A stretch of DNA of 30,136 bases, from IMG/VR virus record IMGVR_UViG_3300017782_000123, positions 1 through 30,136 of that record; one strand, 5' to 3'. Under the pieces are notes generated by a model that saw only the letters and a program-made list of their open reading frames with translations, was not told the origin of the DNA and searched no databases. Both the position numbers and the translations under genes were made by a program. Shown in pieces: positions 1,272-10,626 of the stretch. Position 1 is the stretch's first letter. Each line of letters begins with the position of its first letter. Source of the stretch: a virus.

Positions 1272-1804
1272 ACTTTGAGCTCAAGATCTTGAGTGTGAGC
1301 CGTATCAAGGAACGTAACCTGTTGAAGCCAAGCGAGCGTGCTATGGTCAAGCCTGACACAGGTGTGGAGATCAAGAACAAGAGCGCTTATTATGTGATCA
1401 GAGATTGTGCCACCTTGGCTCATGACTATATACCTCACAAGTGTTACTCCAGCCTGGACGACCCGATAGCAGCATTGCAAGGCGCGTTCACCATGGATGA
1501 TATTGAGGATTTTGTCAACAGATGTTCCAATCAATCACACACCAGACAGTTGCTCAACATAATATTTAGTGACATATACAGAAAAGAGGCCGAGCAATGG
1601 AAACCACCAGAACCTGAAGCACCACAGGTGTTGGAGATAGATGCAGACGCGGATGGTGAGGATATATATCAGGACTATGGGTACAGTGATGCTCAAGACT
1701 CCACCGTGACACATGTGGAAATACCTGTTGAAGCACCTATGGATCTGAATGACAGTGACGCTGTGTCTGTCAAGTTGGCACAAGCGTTTGGTCTGAACGT
1801 TTAA
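1268..1804 (+). CDS. Unrecognised acidic-tailed protein
   Basis: A 178-aa soluble protein with no family I can name. The first 110 residues look globular (basic N-terminus, then mixed helix and strand). From about residue 110 on it is rich in Glu, Asp and Pro, with a strongly acidic stretch (EIDADADGEDIYQDYGYSD) that is probably disordered. The start codon overlaps the previous stop, which points to a two-gene operon with the coiled-coil protein. Its stop codon shares a TTAA with the stop of the convergent holin-like gene, so the two transcripts meet tail to tail with no intergenic space. Confidence 0.65.
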   Translation: MNFELKILSVSRIKERNLLKPSERAMVKPDTGVEIKNKSAYYVIRDCATLAHDYIPHKCYSSLDDPIAALQGAFTMDDIEDFVNRCSNQSHTRQLLNIIFSDIYRKEAEQWKPPEPEAPQVLEIDADADGEDIYQDYGYSDAQDSTVTHVEIPVEAPMDLNDSDAVSVKLAQAFGLNV

Positions 1805-2235
1805 CGACTCTTGCTTGGCACGGCGTAAAATCCAATCACCATGAAACACAAGTCGAAGAAGCTTGTGAGCAACAAACCACCAGTCATTTGCACCAGATCC
1901 CACTCTCTGGCTCCAAACACCCAGCTGAATATGCCCCATTTGGCTGAATCACCCTTGGGTACAACCACATCGTACGTGATATGAGGATTCATCGCGTAAT
2001 ACAACATCAAGAAACACAACGTGAACGTGATGCTCAAAAACAACACACGCCGAGTGCTCTGCACGAATGGATCGCTGGCTTGTTTGGTTTGATTGTCTAT
2101 GAGTGCTTGCAACATGGTGTTGTCACGTGCCGCTAGAATCATTTGATCTTGTCTTTTTTGCTCCAACCAACAGTTTATCAGATTGACACCGAGCTTGATA
2201 CCAGCGCCTATTATTGTGTTTAATATTGGTCCCAT
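1801..2235 (-). CDS. Holin-like multi-pass membrane protein
   Basis: A 144-aa protein with three hydrophobic stretches: residues 3-23 (Gly-rich, possibly amphipathic), 63-81 (LFLSITFTLCFLMLYYAM) and 117-139 (GGLLLTSFFDLCFMVIGFY). A charged linker of about 40 residues (LEQKRQDQMILAARDN) follows the first. This arrangement resembles the three-TM holin-type proteins found in many environmental phages and gene-transfer agents, but no specific signature was identified. A holin would form membrane lesions to start lysis. No endolysin is adjacent, which weakens the call. It converges with the 1268-1804 gene (overlapping stops) and diverges from the gene at 2252 with only 16 bases between the starts. 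Confidence 0.45.
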   Translation of the reverse strand: MGPILNTIIGAGIKLGVNLINCWLEQKRQDQMILAARDNTMLQALIDNQTKQASDPFVQSTRRVLFLSITFTLCFLMLYYAMNPHITYDVVVPKGDSAKWGIFSWVFGAREWDLVQMTGGLLLTSFFDLCFMVIGFYAVPSKSR

Positions 2236-2251: not shown

Positions 2252-2548
2252 ATGGTGTGTTTCAACTTGAGATTGTATGATTATCTAGAACAGTATATCA
2301 TGAACAAAGACACAGAGCATGTGGATTGTTGTCCGGTTTGTTATGACAGGCATTTGAATGCCGATCACACAAGACCTGCGGTGCATGACATTGTTGATTG
2401 TTACAAAAACAAATTGTTACAAGATGTTATAGCCGAGTATCGTGTCAAATACAATCATGAACCAGACATCACCGATCACTTCATATACCAAGTGTGGAAG
2501 CATGTGAGCAAAGAGATGATAGATTATCAGAAGCTCAACAAGCGGTGA
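2252..2548 (+). CDS. Small Cys/His protein, unknown function
   Basis: A 98-aa protein with a possible zinc site: Cys26, Cys27 and Cys30 (CCPVC) followed by His34 and His39. The C-terminal half is helical (HFIYQVWKHVSKEMIDYQKL). No family recognised; a small treble-clef or zinc-ribbon-like regulator is conceivable. The start is fixed by the perfect late promoter just upstream. Its last 14 bases overlap the end of the convergent ClpC-like gene. It is not part of any multi-gene unit in this window. Confidence 0.6.
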   Translation: MVCFNLRLYDYLEQYIMNKDTEHVDCCPVCYDRHLNADHTRPAVHDIVDCYKNKLLQDVIAEYRVKYNHEPDITDHFIYQVWKHVSKEMIDYQKLNKR

Positions 2549-5003
2549 ACAGCAGCTTCTCACCATCCACTGTTATTTTGATTTTGTTGATTGGTTCAGG
2601 TGAGTCTATCAACATCTCAGCCAATGGGGTCTCGATTTGATCAACAATCACACGTCTCAATGGCCTGGCACCATATTCATGTTGTTTGTTGGATCGTGCC
2701 ACAAACTCACACACATCACCACTGTAACTTATCATGCATCCATTGTTGGTCCGTGCATTTGATCTCAACTCTCGAAGCAACAGTTTAGCGACCTCTGTCA
2801 ACTCATCATCATTCAACCGATCAAACACAATCAGATTATCCAATCGGTTGATAAATTCTGGTGCGTACATCTTTCTGAGTTCATCTATCACCGCGGTGTG
2901 AGTGTCATACTGTTGGGTGAAACCAACTGTGTTGAGCTTATCAAACTTGTGGGCTCCAACGTTGCTTGTCATCACTATTATGGTGTTTTTAAAATTGACG
3001 CTCAATCCATCACTGTCTGTGAGACATCCATATTCCAACACTTGTAGAAAAACTTGAAGAACATCCGGATGTGCTTTCTCGATCTCATCCAGAAGTAACA
3101 CACTGTATGGGTTGTGTCGTACGAATTCGGTCAGATCGCCACCCTCTCCTGAACCAACATAACCTGGTGGACTGCCGATCAACTTACTTACACTATGCTT
3201 CTCACTAAATTCACTCATGTCATATTGCTTGAAATTGCCATCTGAAAACATCTCTGTACCTAAGATGCGCGCTAGGTGTGTCTTTCCAACTCCAGTGGGT
3301 CCTAGAAATAATAATGAACATATAGGTCTATCTGGATTTGTGAGTCCGGCTCTGCTACGCTTGATCGCAGAGCATATTGTGTCTATTGCAGACCCTTGAC
3401 CTATAACTTGCTTCTTCATGTTACATGCAAGCTCCCTCAAAACCTCTGCTTCTGATCTGTTTATGTTGTTCACAGGCACACCGGTCCGGTCACTCACTAA
3501 TGATCGCACGTGCTCGATGTCAACACGCTCAGCCTTTCCAGGATTATCATACAAATCCTCACGTTCCTTTATCGCAACATTCAGTTCTTCGATGTATTGT
3601 TGTTCTGTTTCTCTGTAGCCTAATGCTGTGTCAAATTCATGTGCCTCGACTGCTCTATTCTTTCGCTTAATCACCTGTTCGATGCTGGCAAGCAAGTCTC
3701 TCACACATTTTGGCTGCAACTTACGCACTTTGATACGTGCTCCAACCTCATCTAGTATATCAATAGCCTTGTCTGGAAAGCGTTTATCAGGTTGATATCT
3801 ATTACACATATCAACAATCTCTCTCAACACGCCTAAATTGTATTTGACATTATGATATGTTTCGTATTTATGCTTGATACCTCTCAATATTTGTAATGTT
3901 TCATCTTGTGTAGGTTCATCTACAAACACATTCTGAAATCTACGATCCAATGCACCATCATTTTCAATAAACTCTTTATATTCCTGTAATGTTGTTGCAC
4001 CAATACAGCTGATTTTGCCTCGAGCTAGTGCAGGTTTAAGTATGTTACTCGCATCCATGCTCCCGGATGTGGAGCCGGCTCCTACAAGCATGTGTAATTC
4101 ATCTATAAACAAAATGATATCTGGTTGTTGTTGAGCGTAGTTTATTACTTCCTTGAGTCTCTCCTCAAATTGACCTCTATATATTGTACCGGCAACCAAT
4201 TGAGCAAGATCCAATGAGTATATTTGTTTATGGAACATGTTGACAGGTACTTGCTGTGAGACGATCCGTTGAGCAAGCAGCTCCACTACAGCTGTTTTAC
4301 CCACTCCTGGTTCACCAACCAATACAGGATTGTTTTTGGTACGGCGACTTAATATCTCTAGCATGTATTTAACATCAGATTCTCTACCGATAACAGGATC
4401 AAGCTGATCTTCATATGCTAATCTAGTCAAATTAGTAGCATACTTTTCTATCACACTTTCTGTGTGATCTGTACTAGTCATGACCTCATCACCACCTCCA
4501 GAAGGTGATGTCTTTTGTTTTGTTTTGCGCTTGCGCCTCTTGGGTAGTGATACTATTCTACTGTATATGTCTTCATATAAGACATCCACATCAATGTTTT
4601 TGAGCTTGAATAAATTGTTACCAGTACCGCTATCACTGACTAAAATACTCAATAACAGATGATCTACACTCACAAACGTTGAATCCATCTCATGTGCTAT
4701 ACTCGCAGCATATGAGACCATAGTCAATACCCGACCGCTCGGTTCAATTTCATCCATCTTAGGCTTTTTATCACCTTTATATTTTTTGAGATTTGAAATA
4801 ACAAAAGATCTGAAGCTATCGATATCAATTGAGTGTATATCTCTCATGATCTGCACACTACTGGGCAGCTTATCATACTCGAATATACTTAACAATATAT
4901 GCTCGGTCGTTATAAAATCATGCAAATAGTCACATGCGATTTGTTTTGCATGTGACATAATTTTTCTACCACTTGGTGACAATTCCGGTTGGTTGTTCAT
5001 CAT
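2535..5003 (-). CDS. clpC: ClpC-type AAA+ unfoldase (Clp ATPase)
   Basis: An 822-aa Hsp100 protein, about the normal length for ClpC. It has an N-terminal Clp repeat domain (residues about 1-145), a basic linker (PKRRKRKTKQKT), NBD1 with Walker A GEPGVGKT (about 229-236) and Walker B ILFIDE, a short middle domain with a UVR-like motif (EAHEFDTALGYRETEQQ), and NBD2 with Walker A GPTGVGKT (about 567) and Walker B VLLLDE. The arginine-rich sensor segment EFINRLDN is intact. A VGF tripeptide near residue 692 sits where ClpC/ClpA carry the loop that docks ClpP, so it probably feeds substrates to a peptidase. No clpP lies in the window; host ClpP is the obvious partner. I chose the Met at 5003 (5000 is also possible) because TATAAATA lies just upstream; the frame is open 15 codons further. 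Full-length Clp ATPases are unusual in phages. Confidence 0.93.
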   Translation of the reverse strand: MMNNQPELSPSGRKIMSHAKQIACDYLHDFITTEHILLSIFEYDKLPSSVQIMRDIHSIDIDSFRSFVISNLKKYKGDKKPKMDEIEPSGRVLTMVSYAASIAHEMDSTFVSVDHLLLSILVSDSGTGNNLFKLKNIDVDVLYEDIYSRIVSLPKRRKRKTKQKTSPSGGGDEVMTSTDHTESVIEKYATNLTRLAYEDQLDPVIGRESDVKYMLEILSRRTKNNPVLVGEPGVGKTAVVELLAQRIVSQQVPVNMFHKQIYSLDLAQLVAGTIYRGQFEERLKEVINYAQQQPDIILFIDELHMLVGAGSTSGSMDASNILKPALARGKISCIGATTLQEYKEFIENDGALDRRFQNVFVDEPTQDETLQILRGIKHKYETYHNVKYNLGVLREIVDMCNRYQPDKRFPDKAIDILDEVGARIKVRKLQPKCVRDLLASIEQVIKRKNRAVEAHEFDTALGYRETEQQYIEELNVAIKEREDLYDNPGKAERVDIEHVRSLVSDRTGVPVNNINRSEAEVLRELACNMKKQVIGQGSAIDTICSAIKRSRAGLTNPDRPICSLLFLGPTGVGKTHLARILGTEMFSDGNFKQYDMSEFSEKHSVSKLIGSPPGYVGSGEGGDLTEFVRHNPYSVLLLDEIEKAHPDVLQVFLQVLEYGCLTDSDGLSVNFKNTIIVMTSNVGAHKFDKLNTVGFTQQYDTHTAVIDELRKMYAPEFINRLDNLIVFDRLNDDELTEVAKLLLRELRSNARTNNGCMISYSGDVCEFVARSNKQHEYGARPLRRVIVDQIETPLAEMLIDSPEPINKIKITVDGEKLLFTAC

Positions 5004-5007
5004 AAAA

Positions 5008-5015
5008 TATTTATA
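5008..5015 (-). promoter_or_regulatory. Perfect T4-type late promoter for the Clp gene
   Basis: TATAAATA on the minus strand, four bases before the first and seven before the second of two adjacent ATG codons. The expected transcript start falls at about 5002, so the mRNA would have almost no leader. It makes the unfoldase a late gene, in contrast to the sigma70-type promoter driving the divergent operon. Confidence 0.7.
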
Positions 5016-5032
5016 TATGTTACACTTTATTG

Positions 5033-5061
5033 TTGATATATGCAACATTTTATCATATAAT
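5033..5061 (+). promoter_or_regulatory. Sigma70-type promoter of the deazaguanine operon
   Basis: TTGATA (5033-5038), a 17-base spacer and TATAAT (5056-5061): eleven of twelve consensus bases with ideal spacing. Six bases separate the -10 from the ATG at 5068, so the expected +1 is the A of the start codon. It should be read by unmodified host RNA polymerase, that is, early in infection. Confidence 0.75.
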
Positions 5062-5067
5062 GTTAAT

Positions 5068-5901
5068 ATGTATATAGAAGTTTCACATGAAAGTCCAATC
5101 AGTATGTTGGAACACTCATTAACGTATAATGATTACGCTTACGCGTTGGTTCATTTATTTGAAACACATCCTAGATATTATAATTTTTTTAAAAACCTCA
5201 AACAGAGTTCAGATATACCAGTATTGTTAGACAACAGTATATTTGAATTGAAAAAGGCTTTTGATCCTAAGAAATATTGTGAATGGATAAGCAAGTTGAA
5301 ACCAAATTATTATATTGTACCGGATGTTCTAGAAGACTTTGAAGGTACACGTGATGCGTGGAACGATTGGATGTTGAAGTATACTGATAACAGTCACTCA
5401 TTAGGTGACGGTGCTCTCAAAATAGGTGTTGTGCAAGGTGTGAATTGGAACGATCTTGTAGAGTGCTATAAGTTTATGGCTGAACACGCTGAATATATAG
5501 CGATAAGCTTTGATTATTCATATTATCAACACACAGGATATAGTGCAAACTCATCATATCCACACAGACTAGCCAAGATGAAATCTGGCAGAATCAGATT
5601 TATACAGCAGTTGATAGATGAAGGTATATGGTGCTGGGAAAAGCCTCACCATTTGTTGGGTTGTAGTTTAGCCAGTGAGTTCAGATGGTATGTTGATAAC
5701 AATGTACACAATATAAAGAGTTGTGACACAAGTAATCCTGTTGTTGCCTCTATTAAAGGTTTGAGATATAATGACGACATGGGATTAAATATCAAGCCAT
5801 CGACGCTGCTAGCAGATTTGATAGATCACGAAATGACTGATGATCAAATTGATGATCTTGAATACAATACTAAGATGTTTAAAAAAATAATAAGAAGATA
5901 G
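5068..5901 (+). CDS. dpdA: DpdA/TGT-like 7-deazaguanine transglycosylase
   Basis: A 277-aa protein that looks like a compact phage member of the tRNA-guanine transglycosylase superfamily, which swaps a guanine for a 7-deazaguanine. Visible landmarks are LLDNSIFE (53-60), IVPDVLED (83-90, position of the substrate-binding acid), IGVVQG (119-124, equivalent to the GIVQG substrate loop of TGT), HLLGCSLASEF (195-205) and SCDTSNP (208-214), whose Asp210 fits the catalytic nucleophile. The zinc-binding Cys cluster of tRNA TGT is not evident, as expected for DNA-acting DpdA. QueF in the same operon and a formyltransferase one base downstream support DNA modification. The frame is open back to 4993, but the promoter overlaps that part, so ATG 5068 is the start. 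A tRNA-acting TGT or another TIM-barrel enzyme remains possible. Confidence 0.72.
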   Translation: MYIEVSHESPISMLEHSLTYNDYAYALVHLFETHPRYYNFFKNLKQSSDIPVLLDNSIFELKKAFDPKKYCEWISKLKPNYYIVPDVLEDFEGTRDAWNDWMLKYTDNSHSLGDGALKIGVVQGVNWNDLVECYKFMAEHAEYIAISFDYSYYQHTGYSANSSYPHRLAKMKSGRIRFIQQLIDEGIWCWEKPHHLLGCSLASEFRWYVDNNVHNIKSCDTSNPVVASIKGLRYNDDMGLNIKPSTLLADLIDHEMTDDQIDDLEYNTKMFKKIIRR

Positions 5902-5902
5902 T

Positions 5903-6457
5903 ATGTTAATAGAAAATAAGAAATGGGTGGCCATGTTTAGCCACACAGGTAATGAGATATACAACATATCAAAAAAGATAGGCAGATTTCCGGATCGTGT
6001 TATAACAAACAAAACACCAGGTGATAAATGTATTAACAAAAATTTATTATCTAAAACAGATGTAGTTTACGTCAAGGACCGACCTGAAGTACAAGATTAT
6101 AATAGAGTGTTGTGGGATGATTGTGTATTGACGCTACATGGGTGGATGAGAGTTTTACCTAAGACTGTTTGCAAGGAATATGAGATTTATAATTTACATC
6201 CAGGTTTAATAACAAAATATTCAGAATTGAAAGGAGCTGACCCACAACGACGTGTTTTCGAGTGTGAGTATCCAGAGCGATATGAACACGTTGGTTGTGT
6301 CATACATCATGTGTCTCCAGAAGTTGATGCAGGAAAAGTTGTAATGGAAAGATCTACATCCAACACATTTACAGGGTGTGGTGTATTGACAGAATATTTA
6401 CACGAGATGGCTACAGACATGTGGGTCGACTTTATGATGATAAACACATCGGATTAA
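5903..6457 (+). CDS. dpdN: PurN-fold formyltransferase, candidate dPreQ1 formyltransferase
   Basis: A 184-aa protein with the core of the 10-formyltetrahydrofolate-dependent formyltransferases (PurN, Fmt, ArnA). The catalytic triad is visible: Asn97 and His99 in IYNLHPGL and Asp142 in VSPEVDAGKV, matching Asn106, His108 and Asp144 of E. coli PurN. VLTLHGWMRVLP (75-86) corresponds to the strand and loop before the triad. It is shorter than PurN (212 aa) and lacks the Fmt C-terminal domain. It starts one base after the dpdA-like stop, so the two are co-transcribed. A formylated preQ1 base has been reported in phage DNA, and DpdN was predicted as its dPreQ1 formyltransferase; this protein fits that role by fold and position. 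Alternatives are formylation of a sugar or nucleotide amine. Confidence 0.68.
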   Translation: MLIENKKWVAMFSHTGNEIYNISKKIGRFPDRVITNKTPGDKCINKNLLSKTDVVYVKDRPEVQDYNRVLWDDCVLTLHGWMRVLPKTVCKEYEIYNLHPGLITKYSELKGADPQRRVFECEYPERYEHVGCVIHHVSPEVDAGKVVMERSTSNTFTGCGVLTEYLHEMATDMWVDFMMINTSD

Positions 6458-6460
6458 ATA
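6453..6460 (+). promoter_or_regulatory. Weak late-type element
   Basis: ATTAAATA overlaps the stop codon of the formyltransferase and lies three bases before the ATG at 6464. It resembles the late octamer but has two mismatches and could be chance in AT-rich DNA. Confidence 0.25.
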
Positions 6461-6463
6461 CTA

Positions 6464-7006
6464 ATGTTATGGAAGTTTAGAGTATTATTTAATGTTCCGA
6501 TTGAGATTGGATCAATTGTGAAATATATAGATAGTAGATCAAAGGACCGTAGAGGTGTTGGTGAGGTTTGTGGTATTATTGGGGCTGGAGAAAATACAAA
6601 ATATGAGATATACATATTGACCAAACGCTTACAACCCAGAATGACAAGCGATGATAAATATATCACACGTAAGATACATTCAAAGTACTGCAAACATATC
6701 GATATTAATAAGACGATAGTTAACAAAAAAGACTTTGAACTAGGGGATATTGTTTGTTATAAATTTTTAACAATTAAAAAGTATGGTGTTATAACTGGAT
6801 TTGTCCATCCGGATGGTCTAGATACAACTTCATATTACTGTGGATATAATGGCACTGACTTGATAGAGTGTGTGCAAATTGATAAAAACAATTTAACACG
6901 ATGTAGAGACGAGCAGAGTAACATCAAGAGATTCACCTCACATAAAAAGAGACTAAAGATATGTGAGGTAGATCTATGGAACGAGAAAGGTGCTAATATT
7001 ATATAA
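6464..7006 (+). CDS. Unrecognised protein in the deazaguanine operon
   Basis: A 180-aa basic soluble protein with no family I recognise. Two similar-looking beta-rich segments open with EIGSIVKYID (about 14-23) and ELGDIVCYKF (about 92-101), suggesting two tandem small barrel domains (SH3- or KOW-like). The C-terminal third is rich in Lys, Arg and Asn. It starts six bases after the formyltransferase stop, and the next gene's ATG follows its stop directly, so it belongs to the operon. Binding of nucleic acid or of a partner enzyme is plausible for such barrels, but nothing shows it. As a gene of unknown function placed among DNA-modification genes it is a candidate accessory factor. Confidence 0.65.
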   Translation: MLWKFRVLFNVPIEIGSIVKYIDSRSKDRRGVGEVCGIIGAGENTKYEIYILTKRLQPRMTSDDKYITRKIHSKYCKHIDINKTIVNKKDFELGDIVCYKFLTIKKYGVITGFVHPDGLDTTSYYCGYNGTDLIECVQIDKNNLTRCRDEQSNIKRFTSHKKRLKICEVDLWNEKGANII

Positions 7007-7216
7007 ATGGCTCCGTGGCGGTTGTTAAATTTTAAAGGAAAATTGTTGGTTGTGGCATGTTGTTTAAATGTATATGTTGCGGGCGTGATTGGTTTTGGTG
7101 GATCATGGTTTGCGGTATTTTCGATTTGTGTAGCAGCACTATGTGGGATGATGACATTCAATAGCAAGTATCAAATAACAACAGCAGAAGATATTAATGA
7201 AAAAAGAAAAAAATAA
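7007..7216 (+). CDS. Small two-TM membrane protein
   Basis: A 69-aa protein with two hydrophobic helices, about residues 12-30 (KLLVVACCLNVYVAGVIGF) and 33-50 (SWFAVFSICVAALCGMMT), joined by a tight Gly-Gly turn, and a charged C-terminal tail (EDINEKRKK) that would be cytoplasmic together with the basic N-terminus. It is a membrane hairpin without a recognised family. The ATG directly abuts the previous stop, and its last 20 bases overlap the MazZ-like gene, so expression is coupled. It could be a small phage membrane effector, for example in exclusion or inhibition of a host membrane enzyme, but this is speculation. Confidence 0.6.
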   Translation: MAPWRLLNFKGKLLVVACCLNVYVAGVIGFGGSWFAVFSICVAALCGMMTFNSKYQITTAEDINEKRKK

Positions 7217-7559
7217 CAGACAGTTTGATTCCGGAGCACAAAGAGATACCGGTGATGGAAAATTGCGCATGAGCTTGTTACCACAACAGGAACTGAAGCG
7301 TGTACTGAAGAGGTATCTAGATGGTGCAGAAAAGTACGGAGAAAATAACTGGATGAAGGGGATGCCTTTGAGTGTGTACTTTGATTGCGCTCATAGACAT
7401 CTTGAGGCTTGGTGGCGGTGTGAAGATTCGGAAGACCATGCTGCAGCTGTAGTATGGAATATACTGTGCGCCATGCATACAGAAACGCGAGCTTCAGAAT
7501 CGGATGCGTTTCCAAAAGAACGTCAACTGGATGATCGTATTAAATATCCAAAAGATTAG
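7197..7559 (+). CDS. MazZ-like dATP/dGTP pyrophosphohydrolase
   Basis: A 120-aa protein matching the small phage family named after the dATP/dGTP diphosphohydrolase N-terminal domain (formerly DUF5664), related to MazG and to MazZ of 2-aminoadenine phages. Signature blocks are FDSGAQRD (10-17), GKLR (21-24), EKYGENNW (45-52), HRHLEAWW (66-73) and EDHAAAVVWN (79-88), where the acidic and His residues would hold magnesium and the triphosphate. Such enzymes cut dNTPs to dNMP and pyrophosphate. No purZ or datZ is in the window, so a full Z-genome pathway is not supported. Placed between deazaguanine genes and next to a kinase-like protein, it more likely adjusts the deoxynucleotide pool. The start overlaps the membrane-protein gene by 20 bases. 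Confidence 0.75.
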   Translation: MKKEKNNRQFDSGAQRDTGDGKLRMSLLPQQELKRVLKRYLDGAEKYGENNWMKGMPLSVYFDCAHRHLEAWWRCEDSEDHAAAVVWNILCAMHTETRASESDAFPKERQLDDRIKYPKD

Positions 7560-7588
7560 TGGATAATATCTTATAGATAGGATATAAT
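7560..7588 (+). promoter_or_regulatory. Internal sigma70-type promoter
   Basis: TGGATA (7560-7565), a 17-base spacer and TATAAT (7583-7588), five bases before the ATG at 7594. The -10 is perfect and the -35 matches at four of six positions. As with the dpdA promoter, the expected start point falls at the start codon. Confidence 0.55.
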
Positions 7589-7593
7589 GTGGT

Positions 7594-8187
7594 ATGTTAA
7601 TTAGTTTCACAGGTGCACAATGTACAGGTAAGACAACACTACTAAAAGAGTGTATGTCGATGTCTCATGAAGGAGAAGATTTTTTTCAATGGAATTTTGT
7701 TAATGAAGTCACGAGGAAAGTCAAACGTAATGGGTTTTCGATTAACGAACAAGGAAACAACGCAACACAATTACACATATTAAGTGAACATTTAATCAAC
7801 CATACACAGTCTGTAGGTAACACTATGTTGGATAGGTGTATATTAGATGGTTATATATATTCATGCTATTTGGCATCTAGGGGTATAGTTGACGAGTGGG
7901 TTTGTGAATATGCAGGCAATTTGATGAACGAGTTAGTCGGGAGACTAGATCATATTTTTTACACACAACCAGAAGATATACAACTTATCGATGACGGGGA
8001 GAGGAGTCTTGATCATGATTTTAGACAAGGCATAATTGATAGGTATGAGGAGTTATTCGCTCAAAAATATTTTTGGTACAACAAGATAGTCAGATTATAT
8101 GGCGATGAGCAAGAGCGAATGCTAACAATTTTACAAACAATAAATGAACATGACAACAGCAACATTAGACAACTCCAGAATATCTAA
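7594..8187 (+). CDS. P-loop NTPase, NadR/nucleotide-kinase-like (AAA_28 type)
   Basis: A 197-aa protein with an N-terminal Walker A (GAQCTGKTT, residues 7-15) and a kinase-like acidic motif (MLDRCILDGYIYSCYL, about 78-93), in which the DR-x-x-x-D pattern is typical of the NadR/thymidylate-kinase-like AAA_28 group. The length fits small phage nucleotide or nucleoside kinases. The substrate cannot be read from sequence; dNMPs, or a modified nucleotide in this operon, are possible. It has its own sigma70-type promoter directly upstream, and its last 44 bases overlap the queF start, so the two are co-expressed. Because the preceding gene makes dNMPs from dNTPs, kinase and pyrophosphohydrolase may act as a pair. 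Confidence 0.75.
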   Translation: MLISFTGAQCTGKTTLLKECMSMSHEGEDFFQWNFVNEVTRKVKRNGFSINEQGNNATQLHILSEHLINHTQSVGNTMLDRCILDGYIYSCYLASRGIVDEWVCEYAGNLMNELVGRLDHIFYTQPEDIQLIDDGERSLDHDFRQGIIDRYEELFAQKYFWYNKIVRLYGDEQERMLTILQTINEHDNSNIRQLQNI

Positions 8188-9088
8188 ACATCTAGGACAG
8201 GTATCACAGTACAAAGATCAATACGACTCATCGTTACTTGTTAGTGAACCTAGACAGAACAATAGAACGCACCTCGATATAAGTGATGATAATTTACCAT
8301 TTATAGGGTACGATACATGGAATGCATATGAAGTAAGCGCGCTCACTAACAATGGATTGCCAGTTGCTGGTGTTGCTAAGATTGTCTATCCGTGCAATAA
8401 CAAGTATATTGTTGAGAGTAAAAGTATAAAATTATATTTCAACTCATTTAATATGTACAAGTGTGGTGATCAACCTGTAGATGTGTTGGATTTTATTGAT
8501 AAAAAGGCATCAGAGGATTTATCCAAATTACTAGGGACAGTTGTTCATGTACACACCCACCCTGCGAGCTTCAGAGCTAAGGGAGAACAAGTTTTAGATC
8601 CATTTGAATATACAACGTTAGAGGACACCTTCTCACAAGAGGAACTAGGTAAGATGCTTTTAGATACATATAGTGAAACTCCAGAGTTGCTTTGGTTAGA
8701 GGAACCTAGAGAAAATGGTGTTGTGTCTGAAGAGGTAAGATGGCATAGTAGTTTGCTCAAGAGTAATTGCCGTGTGACAAGCCAACCGGATTGGGGAGAT
8801 GTGTATATTATGTACAAGGCACAAACACATATATGTCCAGAGAGCCTGTTAGCGTACATTGTATCATTCAGAGATGAATGTCATTTTCATGAAGAAATTT
8901 GCGAGACTATATACAAACGACTATATGACACTTTGTCACCAGAAGAGCTAGTTGTTACATGTTTGTATGCAAGGCGTGGCGGTATTGACATCAACCCTGT
9001 ACGTGCTTCGAATTCTGCTTTGATCGCACGTGAGTGTCAAGATCTTGTAGATCCATTTGTGATGCATGTCAAGACAGCAAAGCAATAA
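8144..9088 (+). CDS. queF: NADPH-dependent 7-cyano-7-deazaguanine (preQ0) reductase
   Basis: A 314-aa long-type (bimodular, E. coli-like) QueF that reduces the nitrile of preQ0 to the aminomethyl of preQ1 with NADPH. The family motif ESKSIKLYFNSF stands at residues 91-102, after GYDTWNAYEVS (55-65). The catalytic Cys209 lies in LLKSNCRVTSQPDWG, with Asp216 seven residues on, the same spacing as Cys190 and Asp197 of E. coli. FHEEIC (His249, Glu250) supplies the substrate-binding pair and YARRGGIDINP closes the second module. All key residues are intact, so it should be active. The enzyme is cytoplasmic. With the dpdA-like gene in the same block it points to preQ1-type DNA modification rather than to queuosine alone. 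Start at 8144 overlaps the kinase gene; ATG 8150 is an alternative. Confidence 0.95.
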   Translation: MNMTTATLDNSRISKHLGQVSQYKDQYDSSLLVSEPRQNNRTHLDISDDNLPFIGYDTWNAYEVSALTNNGLPVAGVAKIVYPCNNKYIVESKSIKLYFNSFNMYKCGDQPVDVLDFIDKKASEDLSKLLGTVVHVHTHPASFRAKGEQVLDPFEYTTLEDTFSQEELGKMLLDTYSETPELLWLEEPRENGVVSEEVRWHSSLLKSNCRVTSQPDWGDVYIMYKAQTHICPESLLAYIVSFRDECHFHEEICETIYKRLYDTLSPEELVVTCLYARRGGIDINPVRASNSALIARECQDLVDPFVMHVKTAKQ

Positions 9089-9192: not shown

Positions 9193-10626
9193 TCAGAAGT
9201 ACACCGACTGAGTGCCGGGTGTGAACGATTCACCTAAGTCTGAGATTACGATAACATGGTAGTAAAGATCTGCACCAAAGATATTGTCTACAACACCATA
9301 ACGTGTTAATAGTCCAACTCGTGGAGCAAAATCATTAGGACCAACCGTGCGCTGTACCATCACTGGGATGTACGGACAATAAATGATACCTGTGTCGTAA
9401 AACTCAGGTCCTTTATAACCCAATAGAATGTACTCGAGGCGAGATTCGCCACGTTTACCATCTTCATATTGTGCTTCAGTCCGGGTATCGCGATATACAT
9501 TAAACCTTCCACCAAGATTCCCAACACGAGCAATTCCTACTGGTTGGGTGTTTACATTGCCTTGAACCTGCATCCACTGAAATTCAGGGAGCATTTCAAG
9601 AATCGCACAAACGCGAGGTGTAGCAACTAAAAAGTTAGCAGCACCACGACGATTGCGGATAGCGATACGATTCGCTTCAACAATGATCTTAGCATAAAGG
9701 TCACGATTACGTTCGGCCATCCAACGTCCGTCTGCGCTTGCGGGGCTCCAGGTGCTAACACCTTTTCCAGCTCCAGCATTTGCAGCTACTTGAACCATCC
9801 TCATGAGCATTTCCCGGTCGATTTCGGCCTGAATTTCATACGACATAGCGTTTGTCAATTCAGTATCGATATCAATACCGTTCATGTTCTTAAGGTCTTG
9901 TTCAAGTTCAACACTCCAACGAGCAGCAAGTCTACGAGTTCCAGCTTCAACAGCAGTCTTTTCAAATGAAACGACCATCTGTGGAATATTACCGGTTAGC
10001 TCATAGTCTTTGAGCAACTTCGCAACTCCAGCATCTTCATCGATAAAATCGATTCCTGCTCCACCGCTCAATGCGGCAGATGATGCTCCGGTGAAACGTG
10101 TATCAAGAGTTTGATACCCTGCTTCAGTTCCGTCATTTGTGCGAGGTTGTCCATCGTTACCGACAACAGTCGATCCGTACGTGTGTCCGTCGATTCCTGT
10201 CGATCCGAGACTTTCAGTCTCGTACTTGTAACGCATTGCAAAAGCGAGTCCAACTGGACCGCTCATGGGTTGAACGCCTACGATCTCATTAGTGATAAGT
10301 TCAGGGAATGTACGACGAATCATTGGGATCAAGATCTTGGGCAGACGGCTATCTCCTGTGGCATAATGATCTCCTGTTGGAGAAGATTGTCCACCGAGCT
10401 GTCCGAAAGAACTGCCTCCACCAAGTGCACCACCAGCATACGAATTTTCTTTTAAGCACCATGACTCTTGATTTTCCAAGAGAATCGCGGTGTTTAAGCG
10501 AGAATGATCGTCTGTGATAGCCTTGACGTTGTCAGAACTATAGTCCAAAACTGGAGCCCATTTTTCAAGAAGCACTCCTGCGCGTTCTTGATCGATATAT
10601 GATTGTGCGGGTTTTACCTGTGACAT
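9193..10626 (-). CDS. 23: Major capsid protein, T4 gp23-like
   Basis: A 477-aa shell protein of the T4 gp23 family (521 aa in T4). Recognisable parts are the N-terminal start (AGVLLEKWAPVLD), the PMIRRTFPELITNEIVGVQPM block at about residues 97-117, GPVGLAFAMRYKY, and the C-terminal APRVGLLTRYGV region. In T4 the N-terminal about 65 residues are removed by the gp21 protease after an (I/L)-x-E site; here LKE ends at residue 60, before NSYAGG, and is a plausible cleavage point. A Shine-Dalgarno-like AAGGAAA lies upstream, one of few good ones in the window, fitting very high expression. It is last in the head block, 52 bases after gp22 and followed by a strong terminator. No late octamer directly precedes it, so it is probably transcribed from the gp22 or gp21 promoters. 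Confidence 0.95.
   Translation of the reverse strand: MSQVKPAQSYIDQERAGVLLEKWAPVLDYSSDNVKAITDDHSRLNTAILLENQESWCLKENSYAGGALGGGSSFGQLGGQSSPTGDHYATGDSRLPKILIPMIRRTFPELITNEIVGVQPMSGPVGLAFAMRYKYETESLGSTGIDGHTYGSTVVGNDGQPRTNDGTEAGYQTLDTRFTGASSAALSGGAGIDFIDEDAGVAKLLKDYELTGNIPQMVVSFEKTAVEAGTRRLAARWSVELEQDLKNMNGIDIDTELTNAMSYEIQAEIDREMLMRMVQVAANAGAGKGVSTWSPASADGRWMAERNRDLYAKIIVEANRIAIRNRRGAANFLVATPRVCAILEMLPEFQWMQVQGNVNTQPVGIARVGNLGGRFNVYRDTRTEAQYEDGKRGESRLEYILLGYKGPEFYDTGIIYCPYIPVMVQRTVGPNDFAPRVGLLTRYGVVDNIFGADLYYHVIVISDLGESFTPGTQSVYF

Follow-up and report, generated by a model that had tools for sequence, protein, structure and literature searches.

Clp ATPases are common in phages and already known, since the literature describes ClpA from RaK2-like jumbo phages, counts seven Clp proteins for Atu_ph07 and also mentions ClpS and ClpP encoded by phages (Iyer et al.; Attai et al.). 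Phage adaptors of ClpP are known as well, and in the literature that we found the role of phage Clp unfoldases goes no further than suggestion. Gp53 of phage SPO1 is an adaptor that modulates host ClpC/ClpCP (PMC6873191); the uncultivated T4-like phages considered here would likewise retune ClpP-linked proteolysis, but by bringing the unfoldase itself. In form, the phage protein is close to the bacterial ClpC of Staphylococcus aureus and Bacillus subtilis (PDB 6em8, 6em9, 9rai and 3j3s), with which it has in common the domain order, the motors, a short M-domain and a hydrophobic-G-F loop. Here, we describe this 822-residue ClpC-type AAA+ unfoldase, encoded by clpC on the minus strand (2535-5003) of the window, which is an entire IMG/VR record of 30,136 bp. 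Our literature search, with most subscription journals outside its coverage, returned no paper describing ClpC from marine phages of the T4 type, and we did not find the lineage or its genomic context described in the literature searched. The T4-like ClpC offers a clean case, in which a deep phage-specific lineage and a fixed locus are combined with a docking loop apparently under selection and a diverged substrate-binding end. The architecture, the intact motors, the conservation of VGF, the fixed locus and the promoter motifs could all be read directly from the sequence.

The initial annotation had proposed a full-length phage ClpC with both AAA+ domains and a Clp N-domain, and the Pfam, PHROG and PDB matches agree on this. 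The protein matches Pfam Clp_N, AAA, AAA_lid_9, AAA_2 and ClpB_D2-small; PHROG 4871, annotated as 'ATP-dependent protease', spans residues 7-813 (773 bits, E 6.9e-232), and among solved structures S. aureus ClpC is the best match (621 bits, residues 9-815). The start codon at 5003 is backed by orthologs, and a longer start at an ATG at 5048 was rejected since it would read through the promoter region. Identity as ClpA or ClpB was also considered and rejected. The NCBIfam equivalog models for ClpA (TIGR02639, 733 bits, cut-off 993) and ClpB (TIGR03346, 749 bits, cut-off 1232) both score below their cut-offs, the tree sets the protein apart from ClpA, and the VGF ClpP loop speaks against ClpB. 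An AlphaFold2 model (mean pLDDT 83; pTM 0.56, with domain placement unsure) contains an eight-helix N-domain, a disordered linker at residues 152-181, two AAA+ modules and a two-helix M hairpin, and its closest PDB folds are ClpC within ClpC-ClpP and MecA/ClpC/ClpP complexes.

Both motors are intact in sequence. Module D1 (residues 186-425; 3729-4448, minus strand; Pfam AAA and AAA_lid_9) carries the invariant motifs GEPGVGKT (Walker A), FIDE and RRF (arginine finger), and module D2 with its small domain (residues 520-803; 2595-3446, minus strand; Pfam AAA_2 and ClpB_D2-small) carries GPTGVGKT, LDEIEKAH, NRLD and GARP, likewise invariant. Over the phage and bacterial rows of the alignment there is no variation in the Walker A and B, arginine-finger, pore (tyrosine) and sensor residues, and identity to Staphylococcus and Bacillus ClpC reaches 55-56% in D1 and 51-53% in D2. 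The N-domain (residues 1-150; 4554-5003, minus strand) consists of two Clp repeats, eight helices in the model, with Pfam Clp_N matching repeat 2 only. In the alignment its repeats are just 15-26% identical to bacterial ClpC, versus 51-66% within the phage clade, and the second repeat has D-H where the bacterial proteins have T-E-H. This divergence, far greater than that of the motor domains, is in keeping with the earlier suggestion that the N-domain carries a phage-specific choice, although divergence does not equal function.

The middle domain (residues 426-495; 3519-3728, minus strand), previously labeled UVR-type, forms antiparallel helices at 432-453 and 457-486. It is half-length, aligning with the M-domains of Bacillus and Staphylococcus ClpC and falling in a gap in E. 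coli ClpA, and thus belongs with the short M-domains of ClpC rather than with the long ones of ClpB. The label fits insofar as the domain is a two-helix hairpin of ClpC length that keeps the positions of F436 and R443 of S. aureus ClpC; the Pfam UVR model itself, as a further difference from bacterial ClpC, had no match in the 822-residue protein at E <= 0.001. Identity in this domain is low even within the phage clade (30%). F457, corresponding to F436, is kept, with Y in one ortholog, as is R464, corresponding to R443; the position of S. aureus D444 is not. In S. aureus ClpC, F436 and R443 hold the repressed resting state (PMC5699869), and the substitutions F436A and R443A make it independent of adaptors. 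Because these residues are kept in the phage M-domain, a resting state lifted by some adaptor or substrate is, by analogy, a reasonable prediction for phage ClpC.

A phylogeny against bacterial ClpA and ClpC had been recommended as a check. In two trees, the T4-like ClpC rows form one clade (100/100), joined with L141, L146 and L267 (98/97), on the ClpC/ClpB side and split from ClpA at 100/100. This is a phage clade of its own, which lies apart from the bacterial ClpC rows and falls within none of the bacterial phyla sampled. The ClpA proteins of jumbo phages (GAP32, CBB, XaC1 and PA5oct-like) are likewise phage-encoded Hsp100 proteins of PHROG 4871, often among structural genes, but they are ~33-38% identical to phage ClpC and group within ClpA, with E. 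coli ClpA (100/100), apart from the T4-like ClpC clade. The ClpC-like protein of Staphylococcus phage SpP is also a full-length phage ATPase, with LGF in its loop; unlike the T4-like proteins it nests in Bacillota ClpC beside S. aureus ClpC and, judged from its sequence, was acquired separately and more recently, by a phage unrelated to those of the T4-like clade. At least 587 Clp relatives were confirmed in viral contigs, and PHROG 4871 covers the viral relatives tested. A second phage Clp clade (L144, L148 and L153) has ClpC-like architecture with gp23 not detected; its M-domain is without the F436/R443 residues, yet its loop has VGF or IGF. A profile search of genome contigs with a phage-only alignment gave no match, and one with a mixed alignment yielded 80 bacterial loci. 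Several records labeled as phage that had Clp matches, unannotated Listeria and Staphylococcus contigs among them, were set aside as apparent bacterial chromosome and kept solely as bacterial references. These records also include INPHARED CAKLQH020000001, CAKLQH020000034 and CAKLQH020000043, labeled Acinetobacter phage MD-2021a, which carry clpB, clpS-clpA and type VI secretion genes.

The VGF tripeptide, reported near residue 692, lies one residue off, at 693-695 (2927-2919, minus strand), at the tip of the putative ClpP-docking loop. Its counterpart in the alignment is AGF 671-673 in S. aureus ClpC, a protein in which G672D and F673D abolish ClpP binding (PMC12521514), and the general ClpP-docking motif is (L/I/V)-G-(F/L) (PMC8745299). 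The claim that the phage protein keeps this loop is borne out by the orthologs, as VGF is present in all 11 distinct full-length T4-like sequences (55-65% identical to the window protein), whereas the flanks at 690-692 and 696-704 vary by many residues and small indels. The VGF codons differ synonymously (GTT, GTG, GTA or GTC; GGN; TTC or TTT), and therefore conservation acts on the residues rather than on the nucleotides. VGF also occurs in L141, L146 and L267, at merely 38-41% identity. Because the tripeptide is invariant amid variable flanks and codons and is kept at this distance, there is good evidence at the level of sequence for purifying selection on the ClpP-docking loop and hence for ClpP docking being used. 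In the AlphaFold2 model the VGF-bearing tip (691-698) is flexible, and relative to bacterial ClpC the phage loop is ~5 residues shorter after VGF.

On balance, we favor a reading in which this ClpC-type unfoldase docks through VGF on ClpP, probably that of the host, and adds a new substrate choice to it during infection. Phage ClpC would assemble into hexamers, recruit substrates with an N-domain of its own and be held in check by the ClpC-like M-domain; docked by its VGF loops, it would thread unfolded protein into a ClpP barrel that is most likely the host's. Its gene would be transcribed both from the sigma70-type promoter next to the DNA-modification operon and from a late promoter of the T4 type. 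No activator for a repressed phage ClpC was identified, which counts against this explanation.

Host ClpP is the likely partner, judging from gene content. The search for clpP beyond the window, suggested earlier, found none in the window, nor in any further T4-like contig with ClpC that was searched, including the largest (G008, 146.8 kb), an answer that applies to fragments, as all of these contigs are. ClpS was likewise absent from the window, G001, G003 and G008. The foremost alternative, to which we give a minor chance, is that a phage-own ClpP lies in an unsequenced part of the genome and ClpC is one half of a complete phage protease instead of a redirector of host ClpP. Of 12 large viral contigs (124-385 kb) that have other ClpA/C relatives, 9 encode ClpP (PF00574), and the 146.8-kb contig is itself a fragment; against this, every T4-like ClpC contig, the 146.8-kb one included, is free of it, and so are relatives of 217 and 230 kb (gp23 72-74% identical), though these are without ClpC too. 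Among the large phages, many with ClpA/C relatives also have a full ClpP (G022-G031), potentially a complete phage Clp protease. We considered G008 as a complete genome and ruled this out, as it is without DNA polymerase B and tblastn gave no match to cyanophage gp17, gp20 or gp55; a Portal_T4 search of it was uninformative, as controls gave no match either.

The setting of clpC is that of a T4-like phage. The window has a T4-type head cluster, with gp23 (9193-10626, minus strand), scaffold, gp21 protease and gp4, plus tail-fibre genes. The nearest isolates to its gp23 are cyanophages, at an identity of only ~35%; a search for clues to the host gave no tRNAs and no isolate close to the window. 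All T4-like ClpC contigs searched carry gp23. clpC adjoins the head genes, including gp23, and is divergent from a DpdA-like/formyltransferase/QueF operon. The divergent arrangement with the DpdA-like operon is found in all seven gp23 relatives of at least 80% identity whose contigs reach the site (L229, L230, L231, L234, L236, L239 and L241), and likewise in L267 and L141. Eight gp23 relatives at 70-75% identity (L254, L275, L277, L278, L280, L288, L299 and L306) hold the operon without clpC beyond its DpdA-like end, in contigs that continue at least 1.7 kb past that end.

Two sigma70-type promoters stand back to back between the divergent genes. The one toward clpC, TTGCAT-N17-TAACAT (5017-5045, minus strand), was found by pattern and in ortholog loci, most of which have TATAAT as the -10 element; the one toward the DpdA-like gene, TTGATA-N17-TATAAT (5033-5061, plus strand), also recurs in ortholog loci and is the best-scoring sigma70-like site in the window. 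By pattern, TTGCAN-N17-TAnnAT toward clpC is present in 13 of 15 loci, with weaker hexamers in the other two, and TTGA[C/T]A-N17-TATAAT toward the DpdA-like gene in 15 of 15, some of these loci being near-duplicates. The divergent -35 elements overlap in the palindromic GTTGCATATATCAAC (5032-5046, unstranded), which is conserved in the loci and has no second site within 2 mismatches in the window or G008. Across loci the intergenic region reads GTTGCATAT[G/A]TCAAC or a close variant. In the DpdA-like promoter, 6 nt separate the end of TATAAT from the ATG of the gene.

The late promoter that the initial annotation placed upstream of clpC is one part of the picture. A motif search located the T4-type late-promoter octamer TATAAATA (5015-5008, minus strand) 4 nt before the start codon, and NATAAATA precedes clpC in most orthologs. 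The count of TATAAATA in the window is in no excess (2 versus 1.75 expected), but position relative to ORF starts does show an excess: 5 copies of NATAAATA in the window lie immediately ahead of an ORF start, against an expectation of 0.5, and in G008 24 copies do so, against 3.0, with gp22 and tail genes among the genes preceded. Its ATAAATA core ranked 1st of 21 same-composition 7-mers in a permutation test. A late promoter is thus supported but incomplete as an account, since a sigma70-type promoter is conserved too; as sequence features, the conserved back-to-back promoters speak, in addition, for early or middle expression shared with the DNA-modification operon. gp55 was not detected in G008. 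Because NATAAATA lies so close to the start codon, it could possibly be a translation signal instead. From the end of a NATAAATA motif to the start codon the distance is mostly 4-12 nt (window 5008-5068; G008 loci L035-L042), and if these motifs and the TATAAT site of the DpdA-like gene are promoters, many transcripts of the T4-like ClpC phage group would be nearly leaderless.

The head-gene neighborhood and the late motif would also suit a ClpP-free role, be it in chaperoning or disaggregating virion proteins or in virion assembly, with VGF as inherited baggage, and Iyer et al. propose assembly or translocation for jumbo-phage ClpA/ClpX. We regard this role as improbable: strict retention of VGF in an otherwise drifting loop is unexpected of baggage, the M-domain is of the ClpC and not the ClpB type, and conservation extends to the sigma70-type promoter. 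That clpC is a generic spare copy sustaining host protein quality control, without phage-specific targets, is very improbable, for although viral Clp relatives are widespread and Attai et al. propose such stress support for Atu_ph07, the substrate-binding N-domain is the part least like bacterial ClpC yet well conserved within the clade, and the clade, a deep one, does not fall inside the bacterial ClpC sampled.

The operon divergent from clpC (5068-9088, plus strand) encodes TGT-fold, formyltransferase-domain and dATP/dGTP-diphosphohydrolase-like proteins, a kinase and QueF, and is conserved in many T4-like contigs. Its first gene, DpdA-like and TGT-fold (5068-5901, plus strand; AlphaFold2 pLDDT 88), encodes a protein of PHROG 19058, 'unknown function', and the PDB matches listed for it are all tRNA-guanine transglycosylases. 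The formyltransferase suggests formylated-preQ1 chemistry in the operon, and some phages are known to have preQ1 in formylated form as a base. Because 7-deazaguanine bases in phage DNA are the products of QueF and the TGT-like DpdA (PMC6884629), the operon is most likely a 7-deazaguanine DNA-hypermodification set. It is conceivable, if rather unlikely, that ClpC and the operon form a co-regulated takeover and counter-defence module, in which ClpC would remove host proteins, such as restriction or defence proteins, via ClpP while the operon hypermodifies phage DNA.

Two small genes lie at the far end of clpC. A 98-aa ORF (2252-2548, plus strand) is convergent with clpC and overlaps its end; it has a CxxC...C zinc-hook-like motif, with a weak match to Rad50_zn_hook, and a 100-aa counterpart occupies the same position in L030 (7456-7758). 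Its product is a possible candidate for a small partner of ClpC. Downstream of clpC on the same strand is a 144-aa protein with hydrophobic segments (1801-2235, minus strand), which has no match in Pfam or PHROG and is 75-81% identical in orthologous loci.
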